This document shows positions 19,072 through 63,670 of a stretch of DNA of 64,000 nucleotides, piece by piece. The DNA comes from Mugil cephalus (taxonomy: Eukaryota > Chordata > Actinopteri > Mugiliformes > Mugilidae), in NCBI RefSeq assembly GCF_022458985.1, contig NC_061789.1, forward strand, positions 11,290,357-11,354,356, written 5' to 3'. The notes under the pieces were generated by a model that was not told the origin of the DNA, did not search any database, and saw only the letters and a list, made by a program, of their open reading frames with translations. Each line of letters starts with the position of its first letter. The stretch's first letter is position 1. A program made the translations under genes and the position numbers.

Positions 19072-22000
19072 ATGTTGACCCTTGTGGCTGCCGGCTCCGT
19101 CTTCTTCCCTGGACTCTTCCTCCTGTCCAAACAAACCCTGAAACGCCTGATGGGATGGAGCGACGGGGACGCCGCCGTCGTCTCAACGCGGTAAGAGACT
19201 TCAGAGAGGACGTGACACTGACACTGATTACACAGAGACCTCAACATGCTGTCATTCATCATGGGGACTCCTGTCTGTCCCCACGGTGGGACACCAACTC
19301 CAAACCTCAACCTGACAATTTAAAATTTGGTTTCTGTGAAGCTTTCTGTCTTTATGCAGCATCTCTGATTATTGATCACCTTGTCTCTGTGCTCTCAGTC
19401 TGGTGTCGTCAGTCCAAGCCGTCATGGCCTCATCAGCCGGATGTGTCATCATCTCGTCCTGCAGGGACGTCATGGAGGACAGGTGAGGATGAATGAATGA
19501 ATGAATGAATGAATGAATGAATGAATGAATGAATGAAAAGTGCTTTGAGATTTACGTTCTTGGCCGAAACCTGAATTAACTTTGGGATAATTCAATAAAA
19601 AAAAAGAGAAAAATCACTGTATTTATTTACAGTAACTTATTTTAAAGTTCAATATTTGTGTAAATTTGTGAGTTTGGTGCTAATTTCCCAAAGAAGGGAA
19701 GGCAGAATCTTTGAAGTAGAACAATAATCAGACCACTTAAAACTCAGATCAAACACAGAGCTGCTGTACTTTTTATATCAGCCTGTTAATGAGTAAATAT
19801 TTAACCAACATTTCTGCTGCATTTGGGTTAAATTACGAAACTAAAAGTACTGCGTTACACGCAAATAAAACTCACTCAGTGCCATAAAACCTAACTACTC
19901 TGCTGTTCTACTGAGTCTTTCTATCTGATCAGCTGTTTGGCATCTAACGAGAAAACTGGGATATTTTCTTCTTAAACACTTATTTTCTCAGTGTTTTTTA
20001 TCATAACCCATCTCTAAATTCCCTTTATAGTTCGTACCAAATAACTCACTTTACAGATAAATATCAGCTCAGCTTTTTGACAGATTATGACAAAGGTTTC
20101 CAGGTAATGAGCTGGAAAACAGGATTAAAGATTCAAATTTAATCTGCACTTTCCAATTAAAGTTCCTTCCGAAAAATTAATTAATATCAATTAAGTCATG
20201 TTGAATTGTAATATCACACTTCTTTGCTCTCTGATCCGCTACAAACAGAAAAGCTTGCACACGTTTAGCAGTGTACAATGTAGTTTTCAGGAAATCGAAG
20301 TCGTGTTTTCACTGGAGCGGACCTCAGAGTGAGTCTCTAATCTAATTATCACTCCGCTGCTGAGCCTATTTCATCTCCTGAGCAGCAGCCGCAGCACAAC
20401 TATATTAAACCTGTAAGACGGCCACTAATCCTCCCTGCAGAGCACGACGGGAAGTGAAATGAAGTGAGCGCTGGGTGGTTTCCTCATTTCACAGTCAAAG
20501 CGGAGGGAGAGTTTGAGCCTGAGCTGCAGCATTTGTTTATCAAATTACACAGGAAGAGGCAGCGAGCGGCGGAGAGCTTGTTGTTGTTTACTGTAGTTCA
20601 GCCGCAGCAGGAAAACTAAACTGTGAAGGTCCTGCAGGGAATTTAATCACATTAAGAGGAAGACGGATATTGGTCAGGGGTGTCCCGGTTTATTTTAGTT
20701 CAGGCGCCACATACGGCCCAATTTGATTTTGATTTGCTTGACTTAAAGCAGCAACACCTTTAATTATGCTTCATTGAGTCTTGACGTAAGCTGAGTGGTG
20801 AGTTATATATAATAGTGATGAGCAGATCGATACTGAAATATCGATACCTCCGATACCAGATATTTATGCTCTGAAATCGATTCTCAAATCAAAATGTCAA
20901 TACTTTTGATACTTCAGTCATTCAAGGCAGTGTATTTCATTAACAGGAACGTTCTATGTATGATTGTGGCCTCTGTTTGGTTTTTCTGTTGTCGTATTAG
21001 CTCGTCTATACAGTAAATGAGACCACTACCTCAACATACTTCAGAGTTTAAAATAAATAAATTACTCTGATGTATTTGATGCTTTTTTTTTTTTTTTCCC
21101 GACATATTGTCACAAAGTACTGGTATCAGATCGGTATTGCCGATACCAGCCTGAATCTCACTCAGTATCAGATCTTAAAGGAAATCTCTGGTATAAAATA
21201 TCACTAATACATAATTTCTCCCCAAACAAAAACTTTTTTTTTGTATCAGGCTCTAATCGTGTTTATTTCTGCTGTAAAGTTGGACATTTTTTTTGCACAC
21301 ATCTGCAGAGGTGAACTCACATTTGGAACCAGCCTCTAGTGGACATTAGAGAAACTGCAATTTCTGAATTGACTTTAGCCTCTGCCTGGAGGTCGGGGTG
21401 AATGGATGGGTAAATAAAACTCTGATATTTCCATCTGCTAGTTAACTGCTACTGACCATTTTTTAACTGTTTAACCAAAACTGCTCTAAAAACTAAAAAC
21501 TTGATAGATTCAACACCTAACGCTCTCCATCTGTGACTACTCCCGTTTCCAAGGTAACCGCCTTTTTTTTGTGTCCGAACCAAATGGAAGATTAAAAAAA
21601 AAAAATCTTCTCTCTCCTCACTTTTCCTGCTCCCCAGACACTGGCTGACCGACGCCTACATCCTGTTCGCCACGCCGTACTTCGCCTACGACATCTACGC
21701 CATGTTTCTGTGTTACCGGCACAAGCTGCAGGTCAAAGGTCACGAGGAGGCGGGGCTGAGCGCTTCTGTGGCCGGTTACCTGCGCAGGGAGGTCCTCATG
21801 GTGCTGCATCACATCTTCATGGTGGCCTTCTGCTTCCCTGCCTCACTGGTAACTACATGAACACCGAGTTTCTCTCTCTAGCGACAACGTCCTAGAGTAG
21901 AATAGTCTTCTCTAGAGTCCTAGAATAGAGTCCTTCATATGCTCTAAATTGGAGGTTTTAATAGAGAGATTAAGTAGGGACCCCCTACCTACTATATGTG

Positions 22001-37320: not shown

Positions 37321-38860
37321 TCTATCAGTTTCACATAAAAATAATAAGATTTGTTTCAATAATAAAATCTTTAGTTTTTTTTTATGACATATGCTTTAAA
37401 AGATAGCTGGTCATCAATTAAAAACCCCAAGTATTTAAAAGTGGAAACCAACTAATTTTGGTGACATTTTCTGGTAAGAATTTTCTGAGACACTGCTGAT
37501 CTTGCTGAACTTGAAGTAGTTAAAAAACACAAGTACTGTTTTACCAGCATTAAGTTCAAGTAGCAGTTGACAAAGCTGTTCTTGTACTCTATCGAATGCA
37601 TACTAAATAAAGCAAAAGCCTTAGCAGGATGCAAAGCAATAAATAACAGCATCATCAGCATAGAAATGGACAGTTGAGTCTGAATTAATATATAATAAAA
37701 AACAGCAGGCCCCAAACCAATCTTGTGGGGCCCCCTTGTGGACTTGCAAAACCTCTCAGGTAGCACCCTCTGACTGAATATCCTGTCTGTGAGATAGTTA
37801 GTGAACCACCCGACTGCATTTTCAGAAAAGCCAGAAGCTATAAAATGCCCAATTATCTTGTTATGGTCAACCGTATCAAAGGCCTCAGAGAAGTCAAACA
37901 CAGAGCGACAGCACAGTTTATCGTCAACAGCTTCAACTATAAAATTTAGGACCATCCTATTGTTTATTCAGAAATCTGACACTAATGCTGAGAGTATGGA
38001 ATTGGTAGCCAGGAGTTATTAATGTTACACCTACTAGGATTCAAGTTTGCAAAGGTCTTGAATTATGGTTGAATAAGTCAAATAATATTTTTTCGCTTCC
38101 TTTTAAGAGAGAAATAACAAAAGCTTTACAAACCTTGAGGATTTTATTTATCGACAATGTAAGATTAAAACTGTGACACAAGGTTCAGTATTAATTTCTG
38201 ATGCCAATTTTAAAAAGACAGGCTGTAATTTGTCTGGAGCAGCTGGGTTTCTGGGACTGAACACTTTAAGAGACCTAGTGATGTGGTGGTAGTAGGAAAT
38301 ACCCTGGGGAGATTTAAAGAGGTAAGTAAAAAGCCAGAGGAAAAAACATGATTTAACATTTCAGATTTGTCAGTTACCCCGAGACCTTCAATAAAGACAA
38401 TAGATGGAAGATTCATCAAATTATAGCCAGCAGGAAACACATTTCCAGAATTTCTTAGGATCTTTAAGGCTTTCTTTGGTCATGGACAAATAAAACACTA
38501 TTTTTGTGAAGCTGTGACAGAAGCTTCACAAGAGTGGTCAATGAATTACTAGGAGCAGATGAGCTCTACAACATCTCTACAACAACTCTACAACATCCCA
38601 TCAACATAATATGATGAGGTAGGTAACTGTGCATCAAGAGCAACATCTCTAGATCTTCACTTATTGAATCAGTAGCTGTCAATGCAAATATTCTCATCAT
38701 GCCAGGTTTCAGATGAGACAACAATATCACCATGTGTTAAGTATATCCAGATCTTTATCATGTCCGGTTTAGAGATTAAACTCCTTACAATGATGTGGAT
38801 TATCCCAAGACCAGATCTAGATTTAAAACCTGCAGACATAAAACAATGTTAACTCCTTTC
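37321..38860 (-). mobile_element. LINE family C, partial element
   Basis: Minus-strand coding: 37955-37452 holds FDFSEAFDTVDHNKIIGHF and GFSENAVGWFTNYLTDR (palm of a non-LTR reverse transcriptase), with a degraded PQGS block. 38440-38210 holds EMLNHVFSSGFLL...NLPRVFPTTTTSLGLLKCS, the linker upstream of the palm. 38560-38850 reads DLDIL...SSETWHDENI-like, resembling the endonuclease start. Large internal deletions and frame breaks are present. It is more diverged in sequence from families A and B than those copies are among themselves. Confidence 0.7.
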
Positions 38861-40455
38861 AAAGAAACATCACCTCAACCTGATAAAAATCAAACCTTCT
38901 GTTTTGTATTGTAGATAAAGGAAACCAACCTCCTTGTTTATGCTACTGTAAGTCACCTGTACATTTCATTAATCCTTCCTGGCATTAGATCCCCCCAAGT
39001 TCACTGAGAGGACTCCAAAACAAAAGGGTGCTGGGTCTATTTTAGTCACATCAAAAAACATGTCCAACTGACATTTGAGCAACACAGGAAGTTTCAAGAA
39101 AACCAACCTCTGTGAATGAATGCGAGTCGATTGATAACTCCTGGTAAATGCTGAGGAAAATCCATAGTTGGTACAGGAGTTAGTTACACTCTCAGTAATA
39201 AGTATCTGTGGGTGGAATTAAAAGGGTCAAAGACCTCCAGCTATTGGCAGAAGGGCCCTTGTATTTGGCTAAAGGAAATGCAGCTTTCCTGATTGGATGG
39301 GCTGTCCTTTCAGTGGATCTCTACTTGGAGCTGTACTTGGGTCAGAAGCTCCCGCCTATAGTATTAGTTTCATTTCTAGAATAATAATCAGTATAGCTGA
39401 TAAGTTTTACAGTCCAAGTGTGGTACCCAACTATACTTTTGAGTACACCAGGGGTCTGCAACATTTTTTGTATTCAATATTAAGCTATCCCTTATCCCTT
39501 TACTAAAATATGTTAGATTCATGTTAATGTGTAATTAAAGGAAATTTGTGGCAGGAAATTAAAAAGGAAAAAATATATACTGTATATAAAATGTTCAATC
39601 AACCAAAGATTTTGCAACCCCTCTGCAGTACCTCAGTGGACCCCCTAGGGGACACCCTGTTGAAGCCCTTTGGTCTACACTACAATGTGTACACACAGAG
39701 CTAATTTACATTACATTTTCTGATTAAATTATGAAAAATGTTTTCTAAATTCCATAAAGTCCATAAAAGTGTTAATTCCCGTTAATTTCCGTGCCAGTTC
39801 TTAATCATTGTACTACCAAACCAAGTTGCAAAGGTATAATTTTCAGTTAGTAGTATTAGTTAGTACTGGATCATCTTCAAGGGTTAAAGCAGCATCAGAG
39901 CTCAGAATTATAAGGCTGAAGAACAGAAGAAAGGCAGCATCAAGAAGGAGTTTTGTGTAACCACCTGTCTGTCACCTTTATTCTAGATGAAATCTGGAAT
40001 AATTTAAGCTGTAAAATAAACCTTTTGTCATATACTACATTGAAACACATTGACATAAATAAAGACACTTTAGTGTGATGGTCATTTTGATAATACTAAT
40101 TCAACCAGAGTGTGGGACCATATCCGTAAATGTTTTAGGACGTTTGGTTAGAAATGTACAGGAATGAATTATCCCTCCACTGCTATAACTGTGCATTAAG
40201 AGACATTTGATTGTTAATGTGAACTTGTGGACAGATGGTTTTGTCGGACACTGAGTATTTTGTAAATATTACCATTTATATAACGTATATATCTTAACAT
40301 AAACTTGTTATTCTCGTGATTAAAAAAGCCAAATATTTTCTTTCTATATTTTAGCCTCTGATCATGAGAGGTTGAGCTCAGTTTTCGTCTCTTTAATTGT
40401 TCACAGTGGGATAAAATGTGGCCTCAGATGTAGGACAGCCCATGAATTATTTTCA
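38861..40455. other. Intergenic DNA with one deleted hAT-like copy
   Basis: 38861-39250 may be the 5' UTR side of the family C LINE, since it continues in the same orientation without a break I can place. 39445-39672 (CAGGGGTCTGCAACATTTTT ... GTACCTCAGTGGACCCCCTAG) is a deleted copy of the hAT-like family of the maz and tlcd3b introns. The rest is AT-rich without signals. Confidence 0.5.
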
Positions 40456-41130
40456 GAAAGAGGATGTATTCTGTGTTATTTTTCATCTTCACAGCTGTTC
40501 TCAGTCTCTTTGTGTTCATTCTCCATCTGTTTTACATTTTTTTTCTTCTTTCTAATGATCTCGAAACCCTTTGTAATTGTTTTTCATCTTTTTTTCAGAT
40601 TCTGTATCTTATCAGGGATTTTTTTTATCCTTGCTATTGTTTTAAGTTTTTGCATGTTTCCATTCATCCAGTTTGTGTTTCTCTTTATGCTACATGTCTG
40701 TCTTCTGTTGTTGCTGTTATCTCACGTCTCTGTGTTCGTTTCTCCACAGGACTGTCAGGTTTGTATTTCTTTGTAGTTGTCTCCTCTCTGTTCCTCTTTC
40801 ATCTCTTTTTTTTGGTCTTAGTTGCTGTTTGCATTTTGTCATCCTGTCATTTTGGGGACCCATGTAATTGATCATCTATTCGTGGTTCTTTTGTTCCTCT
40901 TTACATTTTGAATCTTTCCCATCGCTTTACTCCATGTTGTGTCTCCTTGTAGTTGTTTGCATCTTTTTTTCCTGGTTAATTTATTTCTCTTCAGTCATTT
41001 TGCCTCTTTGTCTCAATATCTGTATATTTTTCACTGGTTAATATCAGTTTGGGGCCATTTTTCATCATGCTGTGCCTCTTTTTAGTTAATTGCAAATCCT
41101 TCCATCTCTTTGTCTCTTCTCATGTGAACT
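40456..41130 (+). repeat. Decayed T-rich tandem repeat
   Basis: Degenerate units of roughly 30 bp around TTTGTGTCTCTTTGTAGTTGTTTTGCATC. The open frames of 134-135 codons here are low-complexity products of the repeat. The same repeat type lies 3' of hsp70 copies 1 and 2 (about 46480-46800 and 50800-51120). Confidence 0.65.
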
Positions 41131-43343
41131 GACATGATTCACTGTTAAATCAAAGCAGCTTCAGTGTTAAACTTCTACTCTGTTAAACTGAGGACTGATT
41201 TAAAATAAAATCCCCTTTTAAGTCACAATTTAGCCGAACAGTAAAGGCAACTAAATAGAATTCAATTAGTGAAGGTTATTTATATTCATTCAACAAAAGA
41301 AAAAATACATAATTATCCATCAGACACTTTCATGAGTCGCTAATCGTGAGGAACGGGACAATTCCTGGTTTTATCTATTTCTTTTGAGCCAGTCTTCATT
41401 CATGGTACTGAGTGGGTAATACTTGTTTGCTCTTACTGCTGTCCTTGGGCTGCATTTTTTCTTATTTATTTTTTTTTCAGACGCAGCCTGGCGACAGTGT
41501 TTGGCGTTTGTAGCCTGGCTCCGCCCCCAGAGGTGCATCCAATGACAGCAAAGTCATTTAGCAAAATGGAAAATAAAAACAGTACGGGTTTACCACATGA
41601 CTGGGAAACTTTGTCTTGCACCCCCCTCAGAATCAAGATGCAGCAGCACCAAACACCTGCCATGAGCAGGTCTAGAGTGGGCAGGTAGGAATATTATTAG
41701 AATTAATATAATGAAGACTGTTGTGTAGACCTTCTGAAAAATGCTCTTCACCACTATATTATTAAAACCGACTTTAATTGATCAGAAGTCTTCGTAAAGT
41801 AGTTCTACAACTACTTTTATGTCCAAATTATCATTAAAAATAAGAAAGTGAATAGTTTGAAAGTAATATGGAATAAATTGCATATGTTGCCATTGAAAAT
41901 ATTTTAATTGATTCACTCACAAATTGTGTTTTCCATGTCAAACATGCTAGAGCCTTGCAGATTATTGATTTTTATTGTGATACAGGCGCAGGCGAGTCTG
42001 GGGAAACCGGAGTGAGTGTGAAAGAGAGAGAGTTTGCTCAGGGTCTGACTACAGAGGCAGCAGAACCCTGACGTTAGTAAGTTAGGAAAGATGGAGGTAA
42101 GTCTGCTGTTAGTTTTGATTACTTTGCTCGCCCTCAGTCAAGTGATATATATACATTTTTTTTTTTCATATCATTTGATATACTATATTGATCCCCCTCA
42201 ACAAACATTATTTTCTAATTTAATTTATTATTTTCTGAATGTGTGGAAAGGGATGTGTTGTAAAGGGTTATGGTGCAGATATGCACTTAAGTTGAAATAA
42301 ATCCACAGTGAAGTAACTGTTATTTGCACTGAATTGGAATCATTTTAGAAGAAATACACGGAATTAAAAGGCTTCACATATAAACTAATAATTATTAATT
42401 TAATTAATAATTATTAATTTTATTATTTATAAGGGAACTGAGGCAGGAAAATGAGTCCCACTGCTATTTATCAGTAGTTGATTTTATTGATTTGTCCTTT
42501 CTTATTCTATAAAACTAAATGATTTTTCCCAGAATAACAGTTAAACCTCTAAATAAATGCCAATAACATTTCTAATTCAACAGCGGCTTTAATGTATTTT
42601 CACAGCTTTTACAGCCAAACAATGAATTTATTTCTAGATACTGAACAGTAGAAGAGTCTTCTTCAGTTTAAAACATTATTCTCTGATGATTTCAGGAGCA
42701 GTTAAAAAGTATTTGATCATCTCGAAGCAGCTGCTACATGTTTTTATACCTCAAAGCGACAGGTTTAAGACATTTCTCACTGCATATGTGTCCTGATTAT
42801 AAATTTGCTTGAAATGTATTAAGAACCACATCAACCATGGCGCTTCCTCCATTTGTGGCGTCGTCTCAGAGGACGACGAGTCAGAATCTAATGTTAGGAC
42901 CTTCATTTAAATCCAGCTGCATCAGATTTCCTTGTGTTTCAAACAGAAGAAGAAGAAGAAAAAAAAAAACTCAAGAGACAGGACAGAAAAACCTCAAGTC
43001 TGCAGACAGAGCTTGTGTTTCATCGTCAGTACATCCAGCAAAGTTAAACTTAACATTTTAAAGCGTGGAAAACTCTTTTTTCATGGTGGCAAAAAAAAAA
43101 AAAAATGATCAAAACCCAGAAGCTTCCAGCAGAAAATAGATTTTGATGAAACATTTAAAGTTGAAAGCATAATGAGTCTGCATATTTACTAAAGTGAATT
43201 TAATATGATGTAATAATAGAAGAACATCCCACAGAGATCAGACATTTACAGACAGAAATATTAATGACTGATTTGGGTCCGAGATCAGAATTGGTTAAGG
43301 CAAAAAATATATATATAAATATAAATACTGTATATACACAAAC
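41131..43343. other. Intergenic DNA with one exon-like segment
   Basis: Mostly AT-rich. 41480-41690 is a GC-richer block (GTAGCCTGGCTCCGCCCCC) that I cannot assign. 41986-42095 looks like a first exon: GC-rich, a Kozak-like AAAGATGGAG and an immediate consensus donor GTAAGT. No partner exon was found, so it is only a candidate. 42110-43340 shows nothing else. Confidence 0.35.
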
Positions 43344-43430: not shown

Positions 43431-45480
43431 AGCTCTACTCTAACTAGTTTTGTTAGTTTTTCTTGTAAACGATAAACAAAATATAATTTGTATTTGTTTG
43501 TTTGTGTCTTTTTATACAAAATATTTCAAGATAAAATTTTATGGGTTTCTGAAAACTTTTCCCCCTCCACTGTGTATATACGCTTTCATCTTTCCAAACA
43601 CGTGTCCTCATTGATGCTTAAATACATATGAGACACTGAACCTCCTCAACGACCATGATACACATTTAATTTCATTATATTTTATGTCAAAATACTGATA
43701 CAGTGAACAGAAACCGACTCACTCGCTTATACGTTTTCATAGAAATATCAGGTCTGATCTGATCATCATGGACATGAAATAAAAACAGAGCAGATAGAGA
43801 ATTATAACCTTGAGCCTTATTCGAGTGGTTTGTGTTTTAGGGTGGAGTGAAGCTGAATGGGGTGGATCTGGGAACAACAGTTTTTTTTTTTTAATGTAAT
43901 TTTTTTATGAGTCAAGATCAAATATTTACTAAAGAAAATTTTGATTTAGTGAGAATTCAACTATTGTATTAATTTACCTGTGTGAGTTTAAACCATTAGT
44001 GCATGAGTAAATTAAACAAAAACAGTGAATAATAATATAAAATAATTATTATTATTAATAATAATAATAATATAAAGCCATGTCAGTTAATCCAAAACAA
44101 AAAAAAGTGAATGAAGTGTTCAACCTCTTTTAAAGTGAAGGACCTCATTCAACCAGCAGGTGGCAGTAGTGTCTCAGTTATTGAAACGGAGACAACGTGA
44201 GTGCAGACACATATCACTGTTGCTTCATCATCATTAATATTTCACACTCTTGTGTGTGTTCTGGGGCCACAGTTTACACATGAAGCTGAATGAATCTACT
44301 CTGGTGAAGCCTCTCATAAGATCTGGAGGTGTGAGTAATGTGAACGAACCTCTTTAAGAACATGACGACAACACGTTTGAATACATCAGGTCACTTTTGC
44401 TAATTAGGCAGTTTCAAAAACAAAAATGTATTTTACTTTTTTTGTATTTTTCTTTTTCCAAGTCACCAAAAGATGAGAATTCATTCCTATGGTCAGAAGC
44501 AGCAGTTAATGTTAAAACCAATAATATAATAATTATACATCTTTAACCCTTTAGTGTCCTAAGAAAAAAAAAAGCAACAAAAAAATAGCTTTGGGCAATA
44601 ATAATCAACAGCTGAAAATGAAAACAAACAAAAACAATAAATCAATAAAGGCTTCTACCGGTTCAGGAGTCTCATCATTATAATGTTTTGAATTATTCAG
44701 TGTTAAGTACATTTAGAAAAACAAACAAACAAAACATTTAGAAATGAAAAGCTTCAAAGAAAAGACTTGTTCATGTGTGCTGACGTGCAGCAGCATAAAG
44801 ACTTTCACCAGATTTCGTCATTGCATTGTTGATTATCACTAAACACACGGTCTGTGGGGTGAGACGCGTTGAGTCACCGCTCAGAGCTCTGGGTGGGGTC
44901 TTTACGCCATCAGGAGTTAAAATCTGGTCAAATTATATTATATATTATATTTATATATATTATATATACACTATATTTTTTCCCCATCTTTTATTTTTCA
45001 AACTGAAAAAAAAAATAATCTGCTAAAGTGGTAGTAAGATGTAGATACTTAAACATATATAAACAAATAATGTTTTTAGAAAATAATTTGGTCTTTATTA
45101 GACCTGGAATAAGTTACATAACTCTATTCAATGAGGTTTTTGAAACTGTATTATGCTGAATAAAGCAAGTATAACTATAAAAACCATCCTTACGTCTGCC
45201 TCTTCTGTCTGTGGCTTTTATTATTTATTATTCCACACTAACCTCGGCGTTAGAGTCAGGTTGGGTTAGATTCAACATATTTTTAATTTTAATTTTTCGT
45301 TCACATACAGGGAGTTGGTTGTGCCGGACATTAAAGGGTAAAGTCTACTTTTTATATTATATTTTAGTTTCGGCTGTGTTCAGTTTAGTTTGATGTGGTT
45401 TAGTTTTTATGTTTTGAGGGTTTTATGCTGTTTTTGTTTGTTTGTTTGTTTGTTTTTTGTTGTAAATGAAATTCCCCTGA
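43431..45480. other. AT-rich intergenic DNA
   Basis: No gene is recognised on either strand. It holds poly(A)/poly(T) runs and AT tracts (44040-44075, 44935-44975). It occupies the position where a fourth tandem hsp70 body would be expected, but I see no hsp70-like sequence in it. Confidence 0.5.
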
Positions 45481-45795
45481 AGAGTCACAAACACGTCTGA
45501 ATCAAGATGTATTTTTCTTTTCTTTAAATAATCTTTAACTGGTCCGTGTCTCTGAGTCCAACCTGCTTGTCATCATCACTTTAACTTCTCGGATCAACAA
45601 CTCTGCAATAAACAGAACAACAAATAAGAAACTCCTTAAACAGCGAGCAGCAGGCAGGTTTCATCAGGGAATAAAAGGTGTACTCACAGCTGTGTGATGA
45701 GGAGGAGGGCGGTGGTCATGTTGCAGTTGTTGTTGTTATTCTTCTTCTTCTCGTCCTGGTCATTCTTCTTCTTCTTCTTCCGTGGCTCTGCAACT
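45481..45795 (-). pseudogene. Orphan hsp70-type leader exon and short spliced transcript (no hsp70 body)
   Basis: Downstream (leftward) of the TATA box at 45819-45826 lies an AGAAGAAGA-rich leader like those of the hsp70 genes. It ends CACACAGCT at 45688 with donor GTGAGT; the real copies end CACACAACT with GTAAGT. An acceptor TTATTGCAG at about 45609-45603 would give an 85-nt intron. The spliced ATG frame from 45719 is MTTALLLITQLVVDPRS and then a stop. An earlier ATG gives a 15-codon frame. No chaperone coding sequence follows. It is either a relic fourth hsp70 unit or a small, possibly non-coding, heat-inducible RNA. Confidence 0.5.
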
Positions 45796-45818
45796 GAATC
45801 TCTCCTCCTCGTCGTCTT

Positions 45819-46107
45819 CTTTTATATCTCTCTGGTTTCTTCCAGACGTTTCTCGCAAACACTGCAGTAAAGTGAAAATAAATAATGAGGTGTAAATCCG
45901 GTAGCGCATTTCAAAATAAAACACGCCCTGACGCATATTAATTAAAACGCCCACAAGGAAACATGGTCGTGTATTATTTTGAAATCAAATCCGTTTCCGT
46001 TGTCGATTAATCGCCAGATAACCGTGACAACTTAATATATTTAGTTGAGCTGAACCGACCAATCAGAGCAGAGTTAACGATAGTTAGTTCACAGAAAGTT
46101 CTAGAAA
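45819..46107 (-). promoter_or_regulatory. Orphan heat-shock-type promoter (TATA and HSEs)
   Basis: Minus strand: TATAAAAG at 45819-45826, and an HSE at 45839-45853 reading GAAacGTCtgGAA (one substitution in the middle unit). The core GAAGAAACCAGAGAGATATAAA parallels the hsp70 block GAAGTAGCCAGAGAG...ATATAAA with a short deletion. AAAATAAAACACGC at 45913-45926 is identical to 49816-49829 at nearly the same distance from TATA (87 versus 97 bp). A perfect HSE GAAagTTCtaGAA lies at 46093-46107. Confidence 0.65.
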
Positions 46108-46358
46108 CAGCTGCAAGGAAATGACCCAGAAACAGATCAATATTCATGTTTATCATTAGGATTACGTGCTTTTATGATGAGAATACAAACTCAGAGACTT
46201 GTATTTTCATAACAGGAACTTGGAAATTAGTTTTACTGTAAAACACAGGCATAAACACTGATATATTTTATAGTTATAGTCCTATATACAACTCTTTATA
46301 TGAGACATGTATTTATATATATATATACATAGAATTTGCCCAATATGCCTCACACGCT

Positions 46359-46474
<116 letters not shown>

Positions 46475-47384: not shown

Positions 47385-49302
47385 TCAGTCCACCTCCTCA
47401 ATAGTTGGACCCTGGGAGCCGGCTCGTGCCTGCTCTCCACAGCTGCCTGCAGGCATCTCTCCCTGGTACAACTTGCTGATGATGGGGTTGCACACTTTCT
47501 CCAGCTCTTTCTGCTTGTGTTGGTACTCCTCTTTATCAGCCAGCTGGTTGTTCTCCAGCCAGCTGATGGTCTCGTCGCACTTCTCAATCAGCTTCTTCTT
47601 GTCCTCCTCACTGATTTTGCCCTTCAGGTTCTCGTCCTGCACGCTGCTCTTCATGTTGAAGGCGTAGGACTCCAGGGAGTTCTTGGCAGCGATTTTGTCC
47701 CTCTGAAGCTCGTCCTCAGCTTTGTACTTCTCTGCGTCCTGCACCATCCTCTCGATGTCTTCTTTGCTCAGTCGGCCCTTGTCGTTGGTGATGGTGATCT
47801 TGTTCTCTTTGCCGGTGCTTTTGTCCACCGCAGACACGTTCAGGATGCCGTTGGCGTCGATGTCGAAGGTGACCTCGATCTGCGGGACCCCTCGTGGGGC
47901 TGGTGGGATCCTGTCAGCTCAAACTTGCCCAGCAGGTTGTTGTCCTTGGTCATGGCTCTCTCACCCTCGTAGACCTGGATCAGGACCCCAGGCTGGTTGT
48001 CAGAGTAGGTGGTGAAGGTCTGTGTTTGTTTAGTGGGGATGGTGGTGTTGCGTTTGATCAGGGACGTCATGACTCCTCCGGCCGTCTCAATACCCAGGGA
48101 CAGAGGCGCCACATCCAGCAGCAGCAGGTCCTGAACGTTGCCCAAGGTGTCACCTGTGAGGATGGCGGCCTGGACGGCAGCACCATAAGCCACCGCCTCG
48201 TCTGGGTTGATGCTCTTGTTCAGCTCCCGGCCATTGAAGAAGTCCTGCAGGAGTTTCTGGATTCTGGGGATTCGGGTGGAGCCTCCCACCAGGACCACGT
48301 CGTGGATCTGCCCCTTGTCCATTTTGGCGTCCCTCAGGGCTTTCTCCACCGGCTCCAGTGTTCCCCTGAACAGGTCGGCGCACAGCTCCTCAAAGCGAGC
48401 CCTGGTGATGGAGGTGTAGAAGTCCACGCCCTCAAACAGGGAGTCGATCTCGATGCTGGCCTGGGAGCTGGAGGACAGGGTCCTCTTGGCCCTCTCACAA
48501 GCTGTGCGCAGCCTCCTCAGGGCTCTCTTGTTCTGGCTGATGTCCTTCTTGTGTTTCCTCTTGAACTCCTCCACAAAGTGGTTGACCATGCGGTTGTCAA
48601 AGTCCTCTCCGCCCAGGTGAGTGTCTCCAGCTGTGGCCTTCACCTCAAAGATGCCATCTTCGATTGTCAGGATGGACACGTCGAAGGTGCCCCCTCCCAG
48701 GTCAAAGATCAGGACGTTTCTCTCTGCTGACTTGCCTTTGTCCAGACCGTACGCGATGGCGGCCGCCGTGGGCTCGTTGATGATCCTCAGGACGTTGAGT
48801 CCTGCAATGACACCTGCGTCTTTAGTGGCCTGTCTCTGGGAGTCGTTGAAGTACGCTGGGACTGTGATGACTGCGTTGGACACCTTGTGGCCAGGTAGGC
48901 CTCAGCGATCTCCTTCATCTTCACCAGGACCATGGAGGAGATCTCCTCAGGGTAGAAGGCTTTGTTCTCTCCTTTGTACTCCACCTGAATTTTGGGCTTC
49001 CCTCCATCTGAAACCACCTTGAAGGGCCAGTGCTTCATGTCAGCCTGCACCACTGAATCATCAAACTTTCTTCCGATCAGTCTCTTGGCATCAAACACGG
49101 TGTTGCTGGGGTTCAGAGCCACCTGGTTCTTGGCTGCATCTCCAATCAGCCTCTCGGTGTCAGTGAAGGCCACATAGCTGGGGGTGGTCCTGTTGCCCTG
49201 GTCGTTGGCGATGATTTCTACTTTTCCGTGCTGGAAAACCCCCACACAGGAGTAGGTGGTGCCCAGGTCGATGCCGATGGCTGTGCCTTTAGCTGCAGAC
49301 AT
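47385..49302 (-). pseudogene. hsp70: Inducible Hsp70, copy 1, with two single-base deletions
   Basis: Single-exon Hsp70 reading [18 protein letters not shown] through to GPTIEEVD at the stop. It is 1918 nt long where the intact copies have 1920. One G is missing after 48892 ([10 protein letters not shown] becomes [10 protein letters not shown]) and one G after 47908 (LTGLPPAP becomes LTGSHQPH). All three reading segments are otherwise full and nearly identical to copies 2 and 3. Amino-acid changes relative to copies 2 and 3 include A8T, GDTLGN for GDTSGN, IERM for IEKM, and GEMPAGS for GGMPASS. If real, the deletions would truncate the protein at about residue 170 in the ATPase domain. Both fall in G-containing short runs, so base-calling error is a serious alternative. 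Confidence 0.85.
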
Positions 49303-49321
49303 TTTCACTGTACACAGTTTC

Positions 49322-50608: not shown

Positions 50609-50703
<95 letters not shown>

Positions 50704-50726
50704 CGTCTGTCTATCTGTCTATCTAT
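50608..50726 (+). repeat. (TATC)n microsatellite
   Basis: About 25 TATC units, nearly perfect, ending in a few TGTC variants. It is the counterpart of 46359-46473 at the edge of the copy 2 unit. Confidence 0.95.
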
Positions 50727-51673: not shown

Positions 51674-53593
51674 TTAGTCCACCTCCTCAATAGTTGGACC
51701 CTGGGAGCCGGCTCGTGCCTGCTCTCCACAGCTACTTGCAGGCATCCCTCCCTGGTACAACTTGCTGATGATGGGGTTGCACACTTTCTCCAGCTCTTTC
51801 TGCTTGTGTTGGTACTCCTCTTTATCAGCCAGCTGGTTGTTCTCCAGCCAGCTGATGGTCTCGTCGCACTTCTCAATCAGCTTCTTCTTGTCCTCCTCAC
51901 TGATTTTGCCCTTCAAGTTCTCGTCCTGCACGCTGCTCTTCATGTTGAAGGCGTAGGACTCCAGGGAGTTCTTGGCAGCAATTTTGTCCCTCTGAAGCTC
52001 GTCCTCAGCTTTGTATTTCTCTGCGTCCTGCACCATCTTCTCAATGTCTTCTTTGCTCAGTCGGCCCTTGTCGTTGGTGATGGTGATCTTGTTCTCTTTG
52101 CCGGTGCTTTTGTCCACCGCAGACACGTTCAGGATGCCGTTGGCATCGATGTCGAAGGTGACTTCAATCTGAGGGACTCCTCGTGGGGCTGGTGGGAGTC
52201 CTGTCAGGTCAAACTTGCCCAGCAGGTTGTTGTCCTTGGTCATGGCTCTCTCCCCCTCGTAGACCTGGATCAGGACCCCAGGCTGGTTGTCAGAGTAGGT
52301 GGTGAAGGTCTGTGTTTGTTTAGTGGGGATGGTGGTGTTGCGTTTGATCAGGGACGTCATGACTCCTCCAGCTGTCTCGATACCCAGGGACAGAGGCGCC
52401 ACATCCAGTAGCAGCAGGTCCTGAACGTTGCCCGAGGTGTCACCTGTGAGGATGGCGGCCTGGACGGCAGCACCATAAGCCACCGCCTCGTCTGGGTTGA
52501 TGCTCTTGTTCAGCTCCCGGCCATTGAAGAAGTCCTGCAGGAGTTTCTGGATTCTGGGGATTCGGGTGGAGCCTCCCACCAGGACCACGTCGTGGATCTG
52601 CCCCTTGTCCATTTTGGCGTCCCTCAGGGCTTTCTCCACCGGCTCCAGTGTTCCCCTGAACAGGTCGGCGCACAGCTCCTCAAAGCGAGCCCTGGTGATG
52701 GAGGTGTAGAAGTCCACGCCCTCAAACAGGGAGTCGATCTCGATGCTGGCCTGGGAGCTGGAGGACAGGGTCCTCTTGGCCCTCTCACAAGCTGTGCGCA
52801 GCCTCCTCAGGGCTCTCTTGTTCTGGCTGATGTCCTTCTTGTGTTTCCTCTTGAACTCCTCCACAAAGTGGTTGACCATGCGGTTGTCAAAGTCCTCTCC
52901 GCCCAGGTGAGTGTCTCCAGCTGTGGCCTTCACCTCAAAGATGCCGTCTTCGATTGTCAGGATGGACACGTCGAAGGTGCCCCCTCCCAGGTCAAAGATC
53001 AGGACATTTCTTTCTGCTGACTTGCCTTTGTCCAGACCGTATGCGATGGCGGCCGCCGTGGGCTCGTTGATGATCCTCAGGACGTTGAGTCCTGCAATGA
53101 CACCTGCGTCTTTAGTGGCCTGTCGCTGGGAGTCGTTAAAGTACGCTGGGACCGTGATGACTGCGTTGGACACCTTGTGGCCGAGGTAGGCCTCAGCGAT
53201 CTCCTTCATCTTCACCAGGACCATGGAGGAGATCTCCTCAGGGTAGAAGGCTTTGTTCTCTCCTTTGTACTCCACCTGAATTTTGGGCTTCCCTCCATCT
53301 GAAACCACCTTGAAGGGCCAGTGCTTCATGTCAGCCTGCACCACTGAATCATCAAACTTTCTTCCAATCAGTCTCTTGGCATCAAACACAGTGTTGCTGG
53401 GGTTCAGAGCCACCTGGTTCTTGGCTGCATCTCCGATCAGCCTCTCGGTGTCAGTGAAGGCCACATAGCTGGGGGTGGTCCTGTTGCCCTGGTCATTGGC
53501 GATGATTTCTACTTTTCCGTGCTGGAAAACCCCCACACAGGAGTAGGTGGTGCCCAGGTCGATGCCGATCGCTGCGCCTTTAGCTGCAGACAT
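51674..53593 (-). CDS. hsp70: Inducible Hsp70 (HSPA1-type), copy 2, intact, 639 aa
   Basis: Cytosolic/nuclear ATP-dependent chaperone. Intronless coding region. I start at the ATG giving [18 protein letters not shown]; a GTG two codons upstream is in frame but is not a start. Domains: ATPase domain to about 385 with IDLGTTYS (8-15), [14 protein letters not shown] (about 197-210) and [13 protein letters not shown] (about 335-347); linker DLLLLDV; substrate-binding domain and lid; C-terminal EEVD, the TPR co-chaperone tag of cytosolic Hsp70s. Length is as usual for fish Hsp70. It differs from copy 3 at only three residues that I can see (A/S in ELCADLF, D/E in GKFDLTG, S/T in DETISWL). The single-exon body, TATA box and HSE indicate heat-inducible rather than cognate Hsc70. 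Confidence 0.97.
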
Positions 53594-53612
53594 TTTCACT
53601 GTACGCGGTTTC

Positions 53613-53860
53613 CTGAGAAACAGTTAAACAACACGTTACAAACTAGACATCAGCACATTATTTATTCGTTATAAAGCACTTCATCATATGATCATTCAGT
53701 TCAGTATTATTAACTCAAATTGATCTTCTTATATGATGAAAACAATTTAAAAAAATACTCATTCTAACAGTTTCCTCAACTTCTTTTTAATTCTGTAGGT
53801 TAAAGTTTGAGTCTTTCAGAGTAAACTACTTGTTCCATCAGAGATGAAGGTTTTACTTAC
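53613..53860 (-). other. 5' UTR intron of hsp70 copy 2
   Basis: Reverse-strand donor CAACT|GTAAGT at 53860 and acceptor CTCAG|GAAACC at 53613. The leader exon runs from about 53985 to 53861. Confidence 0.75.
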
Positions 53861-54008
53861 AGTTGTGTGTTGACTGGTCTGTGCTGTGAAGAGAATTAAT
53901 CTTCTTCTTCTATGTCTTCCTCTGAGAACTGATCTTCGTCCTCCTCTTCTTCTCTGGATCTTCTACTGAGCTCTGATCTGTTTCTGTCTCTGCTCTCGGA
54001 GCAGCCGC

Positions 54009-54054
54009 TTTATATCTGAGGAAGAGGACTCTCTGGCTACTTCTGGAAATTTCA
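54009..54054 (-). promoter_or_regulatory. hsp70 copy 2 core promoter: TATA and HSE
   Basis: Reverse-strand TATAAA at 54009-54014 and a perfect three-unit HSE at 54040-54054, with the same spacing as in copies 1 and 3. Confidence 0.85.
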
Positions 54055-54124
54055 CCGGCATCACAGTCAAGCTACAGCCAACACGAGGTACTACTTCCTG
54101 TTAGTTGTTAAAAATAAAACATTG

Positions 54125-54480
54125 CCTCATTCAAGTGGGCGAGCCGTGCTGAGGAGGGACTGAGTCTTATTTTTAACGGAAACTATTACTATTTCCGGTT
54201 TCCTTCCGCGTTGATGCTTGACTCACGTGTCTTGAATCTGTCCAATGAAAGCCACGAGCGCAGTTTTTGTTTCCGGTGGTTTCCAGAATAAAATAAACGT
54301 TCTGGTGGATACAGAATTTTCTAGAGAAGACGAGAAAAAGACGAGAAAAAGAGAAAACGTCCGATCTTTGACTTAACGAGTAAACAAGAGAACTGATTCC
54401 AATATTTAACATTTAATATTTCAAAGACAAAAGAAACAGAAAAATAAAATCTTATTTGGGACAGACAGATAGACAGACAG
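54125..54480 (-). promoter_or_regulatory. Copy-2-specific upstream region with an extra HSE
   Basis: Beyond about 54125 the sequence is unlike the upstream regions of copies 1 and 3. It contains GAAttTTCtaGAG at 54314-54326 (HSE with one changed base), a GAGAAAAAGACGAGAAAAAG tract and CACGTG-like CTCACGTGTC at about 54222-54231. It could act on copy 2, or be the edge of the duplicated block. Confidence 0.45.
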
Positions 54481-54927
54481 ATTATTTAAGATGAAACTGT
54501 TCATTAATACAGCACGAAATCATAAGACATGTCACCTCAGGACTATTAAGACAATAAGATCTATGTGCTTATCATGCTACCAGGTGCTGATTCTCATATC
54601 TGTCAGTTTACAACAGTAACAGTTGAGACAATTATTTTTTTTTTTACTGTTATTCTGTAATAACTGTATATATATATAAAACAAATCTGCATGGAGAATC
54701 GGTTACATGTGGCTTTTCATGAATGACATTTGATATTATCTGATCACATTCATCTGTGATGCTGTTCCATTATGAACAATAAAGCTGCAATGCGTTTTCA
54801 AATATTAGCACTGACATGTAGCTAGGGGTGTCAACAAGTTTCAAAGGAACATAAAACAGCAAAACAAATATATCCTTTCTGCTGTTTTCAAGAAACCAGA
54901 ACAAACAGACTCAGTGATGCTGCAAAG
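54481..54927. other. Spacer in the divergent hsp70 pair
   Basis: AT-rich. It is similar in inverted orientation to 50160-50340 upstream of copy 1 (for example GACATGTC, CATGTGCTGAT-like and ATCATGTTGCCA-like words, degraded). No gene. Confidence 0.45.
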
Positions 54928-54957
54928 AGAAAGTTCATGATCTGAGAGGAAAGTTCT
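54928..54957 (+). promoter_or_regulatory. Distal HSE-like pair of hsp70 copy 3
   Basis: GAAagTTC at 54929-54936 and 54949-54956, 20 bp apart, about 350 bp upstream of the TATA box. Conserved with copy 1 in sequence context (AGACTCAGTG...CTGCAAAGAGAAAG). Confidence 0.55.
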
Positions 54958-55265
54958 GCTGCGGCTGAAGTGATACAGTGACATCTGCTGGAGACTCTGA
55001 TCACTTTGTGTCAAGTTATATTCACATTCAACTAAAGTGTTTCCGATTATGGTGTTTACTTAACTTTAATTTATAGGTCTTACCTGTTATAGAGTCCAGA
55101 TAAAGAGAGGACAGATTCAAAACAACATTAAACAAACCTTATGGTACATAGTTTTGCTGTTGTCTTCGCAAAATAAGAAAGAAAAGGACGAATTACGTGT
55201 TGTATTTTTAAACAACTAACAGGAAGTAGTACTTGGTGTTGACTCTAACTTGACTGTGATGCCGG

Positions 55266-55311
55266 TGAAATTTCCAGAAGTAGCCAGAGAGTCCTCTTCC
55301 TCAGATATAAA
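55266..55311 (+). promoter_or_regulatory. hsp70 copy 3 core promoter: HSE and TATA
   Basis: Perfect HSE GAAatTTCcaGAA at 55266-55280 and TATAAA at 55306-55311. Transcription should start near 55335. Confidence 0.85.
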
Positions 55312-55459
55312 GCAGCTGCTCTGAGAGCAGAGACAGAAACAGATCAGAGCTCAGTAGAAGATCGAGAGAAGAAGAAGAGGAAGAAGATCAGTTCTCAGAG
55401 GAAGACATAGAAGAAGAAGATTAATTCTCTTCACAGCACAGACCAGACAACACACAACT

Positions 55460-55709
55460 GTAAGTAAAACCTTCATCTGTGATGGAACAAGTAGTTTACT
55501 TTGAAAGACTCAAAATTTAACTTACAGAATTAAAAAGAAGTTGAGGAAAATGCTAGAATTAGTATTGTTTTAAAATTGCTTTCATCATATAAGAAGATCA
55601 ATTTGACTTAATAATACTGAACTGAATAATAACATGAATAAAGTGCTTTATAATGAATGAACAATGTGCTGATGTCTAGTTTGTAACGTGTTGTTTAACT
55701 GTTTCTCAG
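55460..55709 (+). other. 5' UTR intron of hsp70 copy 3
   Basis: Donor CAACT|GTAAGT at 55460 and acceptor TTTCTCAG|GAAACC ending at 55709; 250 nt, the same position as in the other copies. Confidence 0.75.
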
Positions 55710-55728
55710 GAAACCGTGTACAGTGAAA

Positions 55729-57156
55729 ATGTCTGCAGCTAAAGGCGCAGCCATCGGCATCGACCTGGGCACCACCTACTCCTGTGTGGGGGTTTTCCAG
55801 CACGGAAAAGTAGAAATCATCGCCAACGACCAGGGCAACAGGACCACCCCCAGCTATGTGGCCTTCACTGACACCGAGAGGCTGATCGGAGATGCAGCCA
55901 AGAACCAGGTGGCTCTGAACCCCAGCAACACTGTGTTTGATGCCAAGAGACTGATCGGAAGAAAGTTTGATGATTCAGTGGTGCAAGCTGACATGAAGCA
56001 CTGGCCCTTCAAGGTGGTTTCAGATGGAGGGAAGCCCAAAATTCAGGTGGAGTACAAAGGAGAGAACAAAGCCTTCTACCCTGAGGAGATCTCCTCCATG
56101 GTCCTGGTGAAGATGAAGGAGATCGCTGAGGCCTACCTCGGCCACAAGGTGTCCAACGCAGTCATCACAGTCCCAGCGTACTTCAACGACTCCCAGAGAC
56201 AGGCCACTAAAGACGCAGGTGTCATTGCAGGACTCAACGTCCTGAGGATCATCAACGAGCCCACGGCGGCCGCCATCGCGTACGGTCTGGACAAAGGCAA
56301 GTCAGCAGAAAGAAATGTCCTGATCTTTGACCTGGGAGGGGGCACCTTCGACGTGTCCATCCTGACAATCGAAGACGGCATCTTTGAGGTGAAGGCCACA
56401 GCCGGAGACACTCACCTGGGCGGAGAGGACTTTGACAACCGCATGGTCAACCACTTTGTGGAGGAGTTCAAGAGGAAACACAAGAAGGACATCAGCCAGA
56501 ACAAGAGAGCCCTGAGGAGGCTGCGCACAGCTTGTGAGAGGGCCAAGAGGACCCTGTCCTCCAGCTCCCAGGCCAGCATCGAGATCGACTCCCTGTTTGA
56601 GGGTGTGGACTTCTACACCTCCATCACCAGGGCTCGCTTTGAGGAGCTGTGCTCCGACCTGTTCAGGGGAACACTGGAGCCGGTGGAGAAAGCCCTGAGG
56701 GACGCCAAAATGGACAAGGGGCAGATCCACGACGTGGTCCTGGTGGGAGGCTCCACCCGAATCCCCAGAATCCAGAAACTCCTGCAGGACTTCTTCAATG
56801 GCCGGGAGCTGAACAAGAGCATCAACCCAGATGAGGCGGTGGCTTATGGTGCTGCCGTCCAGGCTGCCATCCTCACAGGTGACACCTCGGGCAACGTTCA
56901 GGACCTGCTGCTACTGGACGTGGCGCCTCTGTCCCTGGGTATCGAGACAGCTGGAGGAGTCATGACGTCCCTGATCAAACGCAACACCACCATCCCCACT
57001 AAACAAACCCAGACCTTCACCACCTACTCTGACAACCAGCCTGGGGTCCTGATCCAGGTCTACGAGGGGGAGAGAGCCATGACCAAGGACAACAACCTGC
57101 TGGGCAAGTTTGAGCTGACAGGACTCCCACCAGCCCCACGAGGAGTCCCTCAGATT

Positions 57157-57189
<33 letters not shown>

Positions 57190-57648
57190 CTGAACGTGTC
57201 TGCGGTGGACAAAAGCACCGGCAAAGAGAACAAGATCACCATCACCAACGACAAGGGCCGACTGAGCAAAGAAGACATTGAGAAGATGGTGCAGGACGCA
57301 GAGAAGTACAAAGCTGAGGACGAGCTTCAGAGGGACAAAATCGCTGCCAAGAACTCCCTGGAGTCCTACGCCTTCAACATGAAGAGCAGCGTGCAGGACG
57401 AGAACTTGAAGGGCAAAATCAGTGAGGAGGACAAGAAGAAGCTGATTGAGAAGTGTGACGAGACCATCACCTGGCTAGAGAACAACCAGCTGGCTGATAA
57501 AGAGGAGTACCAACACAAGCAGAAAGAGCTGGAGAAAGTGTGCAACCCCATCATCAGCAAGTTGTACCAGGGAGGGATGCCTGCAAGTAGCTGTGGAGAG
57601 CAGGCACGAGCCGGCTCCCAGGGTCCAACTATTGAGGAGGTGGACTGA
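55729..57648 (+). CDS. hsp70: Inducible Hsp70 (HSPA1-type), copy 3, intact, 639 aa
   Basis: Divergently oriented partner of copy 2, with transcription starts about 1.3 kb apart. The protein is identical to copy 2 except for three conservative residues. All Hsp70 signatures ([30 protein letters not shown]) and the terminal EEVD are present. The coding start is the ATG of MSAAKG 19 bases after the leader-intron acceptor. Near identity with copies 1 and 2, extending into leader intron and 3' UTR, points to recent duplication or gene conversion. The 3' flank similarity fades at about 57770. Its poly(A) signal is AATAAA at 57973-57978, within the conserved CTGGACAGTGCAATAAA block. Confidence 0.97.
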
Positions 57649-61638: not shown

Positions 61639-63670
61639 ATGAACGGCTCTCTTTTAACGCCGCCCAGCCCGCGGGCTGCCAACTCCTCTCCTTTACCTCC
61701 CTCACCCTCCCCGTCCCCATCCCCGCCGTCCCCGTCTTTGCTGCCCTTGTCCCCCCGGCCTCCCCCTCTCCCGCCGCTGGTGAGCCCCCCGCCCCAGGCT
61801 CACCCGTCCTCGCTGTCCGACACCCCGACGCCATCCCCCTCGCCTTGCCTGAGTTGGACCGAGTTCTGTGAGCTCCACGCTCGCGTCGCCGCTGGGGACT
61901 TCGCACGCCACTTTCGGGCTTTTCTCCTGGAAAACCCTCACTACTCCACCGACTCGGCGGCAGCCTTCTGCCGGCGCTTCACCGACCGCTTCGTCCGACA
62001 CTTCCAGAGCGAGCTGGAGGGGGTGCTCCCGCCGAGCTGCGCGTCTGGGAGGGATGAAATGGTGAGCTGGGCTCCCCAGTCCGATGCGACTTCCCTGGAA
62101 GAGGAAGCGGTCTCTCCTCTGTCGGCAACCGGGGGGGCGGTCCTGCCGTGCCCTCCGACTAACGCGGCGCGCGCGGCGTCCAAGCCCGCGCCGACGCGGC
62201 TGGTGTTGGAGAGCCGCAGCGGGGACAGGTTTCAAGATTCCTACGCCCACGGGCAAGTCCTGCCCCCGTCTTCGTCGTCGTCGTGCTGCTCCTCGGTCGG
62301 AGGCAACAACGGGAGGCGCGAGGAGAGGGGGCCCATGATGGCCCCCGGAAACGGGGAGGCTCCCGTCGAGGAGGAGGAGGACTGCTGGCTCGGGGTGGCG
62401 TCCGTCGGCGAAGACGTCGAGCCGGAAGAGCGGGAGGCGGAGTCCTCGGAGGTGGACAACGCGGACCCCTCGCACACTCCCCAGATCCCGCCTTCCTCTC
62501 TCACTCCTCCACCCGGCTCCAAAGGCAGCAGCACGCCCAACTCCTCCAAAAACAAACTGAAGAAGCGCTTCTCGCTGCGGAGCGTCGGCCGCAGCGTCCG
62601 GGGGAGCGTCCGCGGCATCCTGCACTGGCGGAGCTCCTCCAGCGACTCCGCCCAGAGCCAGCTGCCCTCCAGCTACAGCTACACCATGGGCGTCCAGGAT
62701 GCCAGCCTGATTTCGGCCTCCAAGAGGAACTCTGGCACCCAGCCCCCCACGCCCACCTCCTCCATGCCCGTCTCCCTGTCCATGCCCCTGTCCCTGCCTC
62801 ACTCCTCCTCCTCCTCCCTGCCGCCGTCGTCTTCAAGCAGCGCCACCTCGCTGTCTCTGTCGGAGGCCGCCCGGGATCGGCGGCGAAGCAACGGCGAGGG
62901 AGGCGAGAAGGAGAAGTGGAGCCACCGCTTGGAGAAACTCAGACTGTCCCGGTCCCCTCCCCCCGTCCTCACCCCGAACGCCTCCGGCTCCCAGTCCGCC
63001 TCCTCCATGCTGCCGCCGAGCAGCGCCGCCGCCATGGGCCCCCCGCGGAAGGTGGGCCGGCTGGTGCGGGAGGGCGGGGTGAGCGTCAGCTCGTCCAACG
63101 ACGAGTTGAGCGGGAGCCACAGCTTCTCCGGCTTCTCGTTCGGTCTGCTGCATCACGGCACGGACAACAACAACGCTGCCTCAGCTTCGTCCGCCGCAGC
63201 TCAGGCCGGTTCGGTGCAGCCTCTGGCCAGCGGAGGGAACGTGCCCTGGAGGGGAGGACGCTGGCATAAATGTCGCCTGGTCCTTAAGGAGAGGGACAGA
63301 GAAGGAGGAGAGCGGGGAGAGGAGTACTACTTGGAATTCTTCATTCCACCCAAAGTGAGTAACCCCAAAGATCCCATTCATGGAAGTCATAGTACTGCAT
63401 ATTATATAAACCTGAATAATAGTAATCATTACATTATTAATTCATGTCAGGTGGGAATATACTTAAGATCATCTCTTTCTAGTGACCTTATTTCTTAAAT
63501 GTTCTTCTTAACGCCTCATAACAGCCACTTCTTAAAGCTAAAGGGAAAACTGCTGTTTGTCTCCTCAGTCGTCAAAGCCTCGGCTGACTGTCCCCTGCTG
63601 CTCGATCGTGGATGTGAGAAGCACCACAGCGCTGGAGGTCCCCGACAAGGAAAACACCTTTCTGCTGCAG
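61639..63670 (+). CDS. sh2b1: SH2B adapter protein 1 (SH2B1), 5' part, continues beyond window
   Basis: Adapter for JAK2, insulin and leptin receptor signalling. Exons: 61639-63354 (572 codons) and 63569-63670 (34 codons, [18 protein letters not shown]...NTFLLQ), phase 0, GT-AG. The start [11 protein letters not shown] matches the MNG start of mammalian SH2B1 and lies 4 bases after the acceptor TCTTTCAG. Domains: Pro-rich start; dimerisation (phenylalanine zipper) region about 72-130 ([31 protein letters not shown]); acidic and Ser-rich middle; basic segment [17 protein letters not shown] at about 305-325, a nuclear/membrane-localising block conserved in SH2B1; PH domain beginning at about 540 ([20 protein letters not shown]). 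The rest of the PH domain and the SH2 domain lie outside. The exon is long and Ser/Pro-rich compared with mammals. SH2B2/3 are less likely because of the N-terminus and basic block. Confidence 0.93.

Follow-up and report, generated by a model that had tools for sequence, protein, structure and literature searches.

Beside the hsp70 array of Mugil cephalus lies a minus-strand segment, here called the orphan, with an hsp70-like promoter and leader and without a gene body. Is it a true relative of the hsp70 5′ end, how did it come to stand without a body, and could it still be transcribed on heating? The window (the whole 64-kb stretch of DNA analysed) contained three hsp70 genes:

47385–49320, minus strand: exon 2 with the coding region of hsp70 copy 1; two deletions of 1 nt, at 48892 and 47908
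51674–53599, minus strand: hsp70 copy 2, coding region intact, frame unbroken
55723–57648, plus strand: hsp70 copy 3, coding region intact, frame unbroken, divergent from copy 2

The coding region of copy 1 itself occupied 47385–49308 (minus strand), and the copy-1 fragment matched Pfam HSP70 (E = 3.5e-157). With copy 2 as the reference, its frame was broken by the two deletions on the minus strand, which could be the mark of a recent pseudogene or sequence errors. Each of the three copies had a non-coding exon 1 and an intron of 247–249 nt; pairwise identities were 91.9–95.6% in upstream plus leader sequence and 98.3–98.9% in coding sequence (pairs tested).

Copies 2 and 3 were divergently oriented around 53600–55720. 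About 540 bases of far upstream DNA were alike in copies 1 and 3 (91.9%), whereas the match of copy 2 to copy-1 upstream DNA started only near −110, indicating that the array was rearranged upstream of copy 2. GATA/ATCT tetranucleotide arrays at 46360–46472 and 50609–50726 formed the 3′ edges of the copy-1 and copy-2 units, and the homology between the 3′ flanks of these two copies ended there. Farther away, Pfam searches found C2H2 zinc fingers (380–760, plus strand), a TLC-domain exon (21558–21860, plus strand) and a Phe_ZIP protein (61639–63498, plus strand), which we take to be of SH2B type.

The initial annotation had placed an orphan hsp70-like promoter and leader on the minus strand, and its coordinates held. 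In an nhmmer search with a profile of the three hsp70 5′ regions, the orphan was matched on the minus strand from 45939 to 45658 at E = 4.9e-12, and the next match outside the copies had E = 3.8. The matched block and the promoter elements were:

45658–45939, minus strand: block homologous to the 5′ regions of copies 1–3 (proximal promoter, TATA box, leader exon, donor and first 30 nt of the intron)
46093–46107, minus strand: perfect three-unit HSE, TTTCTAGAACTTTCT, lying about 270 bp before the TATA box of the orphan
45913–45926, minus strand: 14-mer in common with copy 1, GCGTGTTTTATTTT, occurring twice in the window (45926–45913 and 49829–49816)
45839–45853, minus strand: proximal HSE, AGAAACGTCTGGAAG, with 8/9 core bases, aligned with the perfect HSE of copies 1–3
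45819–45826, minus strand: TATA box, TATAAAAG, preceded by CCAGAGAGA as in the copies, less a 13-bp stretch

Smith-Waterman scores of the orphan against copies 1, 2 and 3 were 120, 96 and 99, and in the shuffle comparison that had been proposed as a check, none of 500 dinucleotide shuffles per copy reached them (maxima 52, 51 and 62, respectively). The alignments were collinear, running from the proximal promoter through the TATA box, leader and donor into 30 nt of intron. The copy-1 5′ sequence was also compared with 700-base tiles of both strands taken from outside the hsp70 loci and the orphan; these 428 other tiles scored at most 55, vs 120 for the orphan, and the reverse tile search gave a maximum of 51 over 428 tiles.

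The segment was also scored in parts. For the leader (45680–45830), 0, 0 and 1 of 500 shuffles reached the scores against copies 1, 2 and 3; for the promoter (45830–46150) the counts were 0, 28 and 10, so that by itself this part exceeded all 500 shuffles only against copy 1; for the intron plus exon 2 (45481–45690) they were 20, 55 and 169. Profiles of single parts gave the orphan E values of 0.12 (promoter to TATA box), 0.021 (proximal promoter), 0.56 (leader) and 0.00068 (intron start), and with each of the four it was the top match after the three copies. The leader-only and promoter-only matches were each without significance alone; the strongest single part was the intron start, where simple purine repeats cannot explain the match. 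From 46099 to 45940 the similarity to hsp70 depended on the pairwise alignment with copy 1 alone, and the strong block was 45939–45658. Upstream of 46100 no homology to the upstream DNA of the copies was found: of 500 shuffles, 214 reached the score for copy 1, 254 that for copy 3 and 168 that for copy 2.

A chance or convergent resemblance, in which a purine-rich stretch with an HSE and a TATA box came to look like hsp70, could draw on the low complexity of the leader and its poor leader-only profile match. It is hardly credible against the E values of the whole block and of the intron start, the 0/500 shuffles and the conserved order and spacing, and was refuted at the level of the profile, shuffle and spacing tests. 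Homology of the orphan to the hsp70 5′ end (promoter, leader and intron start) is, on these comparisons, nearly certain.

The promoter elements were as the initial annotation had described them. It had reported an HSE with one changed unit, and the proximal HSE read GAA..GTC..GAA, with one base changed; the block ahead of the TATA box, described as in the hsp70 promoters, was present apart from the 13-bp stretch. The 14-mer lay 100 bp before the TATA box in the orphan and 110 bp in copy 1, nearly the same distance. Relative to the copies, the orphan was without the 13-bp stretch between HSE and TATA box and without about 16 bp after the TATA box, and its TATA-to-donor distance was 139 nt, vs 151, 154 and 154 nt in copies 1–3. 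In a feature check, a TATA box and a three-unit HSE were both present in the orphan, the TATA box being kept, the proximal HSE imperfect and a perfect HSE lying upstream. In copies 1 and 3 the position aligned with this upstream HSE carried no such element. Two exact promoter patterns had no match in the viral_contigs collection, which is not fish DNA, so this result says little.

Spacings of 4.30 and 3.9 kb between successive TATA boxes had been taken as those of a fourth tandem hsp70 unit. The TATA boxes were at 54014, 49719 and 45826, hence 4295 and 3893 bp apart; the second distance carries little weight, since it shows no more than that the start of the orphan coincides with the end of the copy-1 unit. 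The claim that no Hsp70 coding sequence follows was borne out. A tblastn search for Hsp70 coding sequence over 25000–46399 gave no coding trace (best E = 1.9), blastn with the CDS gave a best E of 0.34, located in the purine-rich leader, and a CDS profile matched only copies 1–3 in the window. With no Hsp70 coding sequence, intact or broken, downstream, the orphan is therefore not a complete hsp70 gene or a full-length pseudogene. A fragment at 37452–37967 (minus strand) weakly matched a reverse transcriptase (Pfam RVT_1, E = 0.0017, short of the curated cut-off) and is likely a retroelement remnant.

A T-rich repeat 3′ of copies 1 and 2 had been reported to occur again at 40.5–41.1 kb, on the far side of the missing body. 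Its likeness to the hsp70 3′ flanks was real: the minus-strand tile 40401–41400 scored 105 and 121 against the 3′ flanks of copies 1 and 2, scores reached by 0/100 shuffles, and the maximum over 44 control tiles was 57. Blastn gave E = 1.8e-10 and 3.6e-9 without the low-complexity filter and nothing at E up to 1 with it. The supposed collinearity failed. Copies 1 and 2 aligned to the far-side repeat in registers about 230–245 bp apart, although the aligned parts of their 3′ flanks are mutually homologous without such a shift, and a composition-aware 3′-flank profile gave E = 7.9. Two separate arrays of one degenerate purine-rich repeat would explain this similarity. The repeat was accordingly rejected as a landmark of a lost collinear unit, and past the absent body no collinear hsp70 3′ flank was found at 40.4–41.1 kb. 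The degenerate purine-rich repeat itself spanned 40400–41130 (minus strand) and recurred 3′ of copies 1 and 2.

The proposal that a fourth tandem unit had lost its body thus stood in part: the homology and the absence of coding sequence were upheld, and a complete former unit was not, the far-side repeat being out of register. With the repeat out of register and the 3′-flank profile weak, loss of the body is not distinguished from duplication of the 5′ end only. The latter, in which unequal exchange copied only the hsp70 5′ end and a coding body was never present, has a nearly even chance of being right. In 38–45.6 kb neither a coding nor a 3′-flank trace was found besides the out-of-register degenerate repeat, and the homology reaches only to 45658, within the intron, or at the farthest to the acceptor. 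Set against this, the orphan lies directly after the GATA repeat of the copy-1 unit, as copy 1 lies after that of copy 2, which fits a former full tandem unit too; and at this divergence a body deleted in one step would also leave little.

In aligned positions the orphan was 70.7–71.9% identical to copies 1–3. Being about 72% identical when the copies are 91.9–95.6% alike among themselves, it has escaped the homogenisation that keeps the copies alike. The homology being shown, the alignments are best read as those of a paralogue of the hsp70 5′ end, old and diverged, that stands beside the array and has no coding body. An assembly artefact, with a tandem unit collapsed or mis-joined, is highly improbable: tandem arrays are prone to such errors and the two 1-nt deletions of copy 1 could be sequence errors, but the window contained no N, and the orphan differs by about 28% from every copy, unlike a mis-join of existing copies. 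A one-sided decay of the array is suggested by the body absent at the orphan, the two frameshifts in copy 1 and the intact copies 2 and 3.

The RNA that the orphan would give was predicted from the following features:

45688–45798, minus strand: predicted leader exon 1, purine-rich, with two ATGs; its start is predicted from the TATA box
45603–45687, minus strand: predicted intron of 85 nt, GTGAGT...TTGCAG, its 5′ 30 nt homologous to the hsp70 intron and its 3′ end possibly so
45500–45602, minus strand: predicted exon 2, without detectable hsp70 homology
45513 and 45229, minus strand: candidate poly(A) signals, AATACA (weak) and AATAAA (stronger), respectively

A leader ending at GTGAGT, where the copies have GTAAGT, with a usable acceptor 85 nt on, was recovered as first described: the orphan donor was CACACAGCT followed by GTGAGT, with the first intron base at 45687 and the intron end at 45603, vs CACACAACT followed by GTAAGT in copies 1 and 2. 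The candidate intron of 85 nt compares with 247–249 nt in the copies, and its homology to hsp70 faded at 45658, 30 nt inside. At its other end, scores anchored on the acceptor were 30, 26 and 26 against copies 1, 2 and 3, with 0, 2 and 1 shuffles out of 150 scoring as high; no natural pyrimidine-rich CAG site reached 30 against copy 1 (0/250, with 250 tried of 256 qualifying). Unanchored, the score was reached by 3/500 shuffles for 45601–45658 and by 113/500 for 45481–45658, and an intron-end profile gave no match at the orphan at E up to 10. On these scores the acceptor, or the 3′ end of the intron, may be inherited from hsp70. No homology of the predicted exon 2 to the hsp70 coding start, coding end or 3′ flank was found (326 and 178 of 500 shuffles; anchored score 0).

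The longest ATG frame in the predicted spliced RNA was 17 codons, the length first reported. The fold of this RNA was ordinary (−39.0, vs −36.8 ± 3.9 for shuffles). Exon 1 of the orphan held two upstream ATGs and exon 1 of copies 1–3 none, a gain expected without selection for translation. The donor and a plausible acceptor, behind an upstream promoter that looks usable, would also suit a chimeric gene, in which the hsp70 5′ end serves as exon 1 of another heat-inducible gene with its other exons between 45.6 and 38 kb. This is very unlikely: there was no notable minus-strand frame, and no Pfam family was matched in the 10 scanned of 22 minus-strand frames of at least 45 aa in 39.5–46.2 kb. 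Rfam searches at the gathering score and tRNA searches, both over the whole window, gave no match.

Whether the orphan is active was approached through the conservation of its core sites. In the TATAAA, HSE core and donor, 20/22 bases were kept, vs 279/394 at the other aligned positions of the block (binomial P = 0.025; Fisher P = 0.028), a weak test, the sites having been chosen after looking and the alignment favouring conserved patches. Perfect three-unit HSEs numbered five in the 64 kb, namely those of the three hsp70 promoters, 46093–46107 and 39087–39101; the last lay in unrelated sequence, away from recognised genes. Window shuffles held 1.27 on average, with a maximum of 6 in 100 shuffles, and about 1/100 shuffles held as many as five. 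The chance of a perfect HSE in a given 300 bp was about 0.006, for a region picked after looking.

A dead relic, i.e. a homologous 5′ fragment that is transcriptionally silent and decaying neutrally, is quite possible, though somewhat short of an even chance. Its 72% identity to copy 1, vs 92–96% among the copies, means that it left the homogenising array long ago, and the new leader ATGs, the base change in the proximal HSE and the lack of a coding product point the same way. Against such a relic are the kept TATA box, donor and 8/9 HSE bases (P about 0.025) and the extra perfect HSE upstream. Because of this mild core-site conservation and the extra upstream HSE, we put heat-inducible transcription from the orphan at about an even chance. 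Arguments against activity are that one of the five perfect HSEs (39087) lies in unrelated sequence and shuffles reach 6; that the proximal HSE has one base changed and stands 13 bp closer to the TATA box; and that the leader has gained two ATGs and the spliced RNA folds no better than shuffles.

If the orphan is active, trimers of heat-shock factor (HSF) would bind both HSEs, the proximal one and the perfect one farther upstream, and RNA polymerase II would load at the orphan TATA box. The product would be a short RNA coding for no chaperone, either spliced at 45687/45603 or read through. Possible end points of read-through RNA are poly(A) signals, among them the AATACA at 45513 and the AATAAA at 45229. 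Further putative effects are an opening of the array chromatin, a titration of HSF or a role of the RNA. Taken as a whole, the explanation that we favour, as probable rather than firm, is an hsp70 5′-end paralogue without a body that is still HSF-responsive and transcribed.

A selected function of the RNA or the site is improbable on the sequence evidence, and the RNA would more likely be a by-product than a functional product. Less probable again is the fuller proposal of a vertebrate single-copy analogue of Drosophila alpha-beta and hsr-omega. Here an hsp70 unit would have lost its body, or never had one, selection would have kept its promoter and spliced leader, and heating would induce a spliced transcript of about 220 nt, with a frame of 17 codons, on the margin of the hsp70 cluster.

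In Drosophila, the alpha-beta heat-shock transcripts at 87C are driven by the hsp70-derived gamma element and come from a repeated array. They resemble the orphan in having an hsp70-type promoter without Hsp70 coding sequence, and alpha-beta RNA is heat-induced; the orphan differs in being a single diverged copy, described here from its DNA. Drosophila hsr-omega is, to our knowledge, not derived from hsp70. It is a single-copy heat-inducible locus giving an RNA rather than a chaperone, and its nuclear function has been shown (PMC9032817); the orphan resembles it in being single-copy and may likewise give an RNA on heating. By way of working, hsr-omega and the 87C alpha-beta transcripts would be the nearest systems, and we claim membership in neither.

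Degenerate hsp70 copies have been described in Diptera and in human. A study of dipteran unprocessed (duplicated) pseudogenes places them in tandem arrays, where, like the orphan, they are degenerate members beside a homogenised array shaped by unequal exchange and gene conversion (PMC3071340). Two such pseudogenes in O. pardalina keep the coding region and are without an HSE and 5′-flank homology, and a D. lummei copy is without the first 300 coding nucleotides, according to the same study (PMC3071340); the orphan, in contrast to those of O. pardalina, keeps the 5′ end, and its body is absent. Among human hsp70 pseudogenes, 27/30 arose from HSPA8 by retroposition and are mostly intronless, and HSPA7 is transcribed under certain conditions, according to a survey of them (PMC2266713). 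HSPA7 and the HSPA8 pseudogenes are, like the orphan, non-functional hsp70 relatives, but they keep hsp70 coding sequence, and the retroposed HSPA8 ones are without the promoter-plus-intron structure of the orphan (PMC2266713). Judged by title and abstract, no body-less hsp70 promoter in fish was recognised in the literature searched; most subscription papers lay outside this coverage, so we do not claim that none exists.

Described degenerate hsp70 copies mostly keep the body and lose the promoter. The orphan is the reverse, with promoter, leader and donor kept and no body. If it is silent, it would be a dated relic recording growth or shrinkage of the array at the cluster edge. If it is transcribed on heating, it would separate heat-shock promoter behaviour from the chaperone product in the native setting of the genes. 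Vertebrates would then offer a natural example, in single copy, of non-coding transcription induced by heat.
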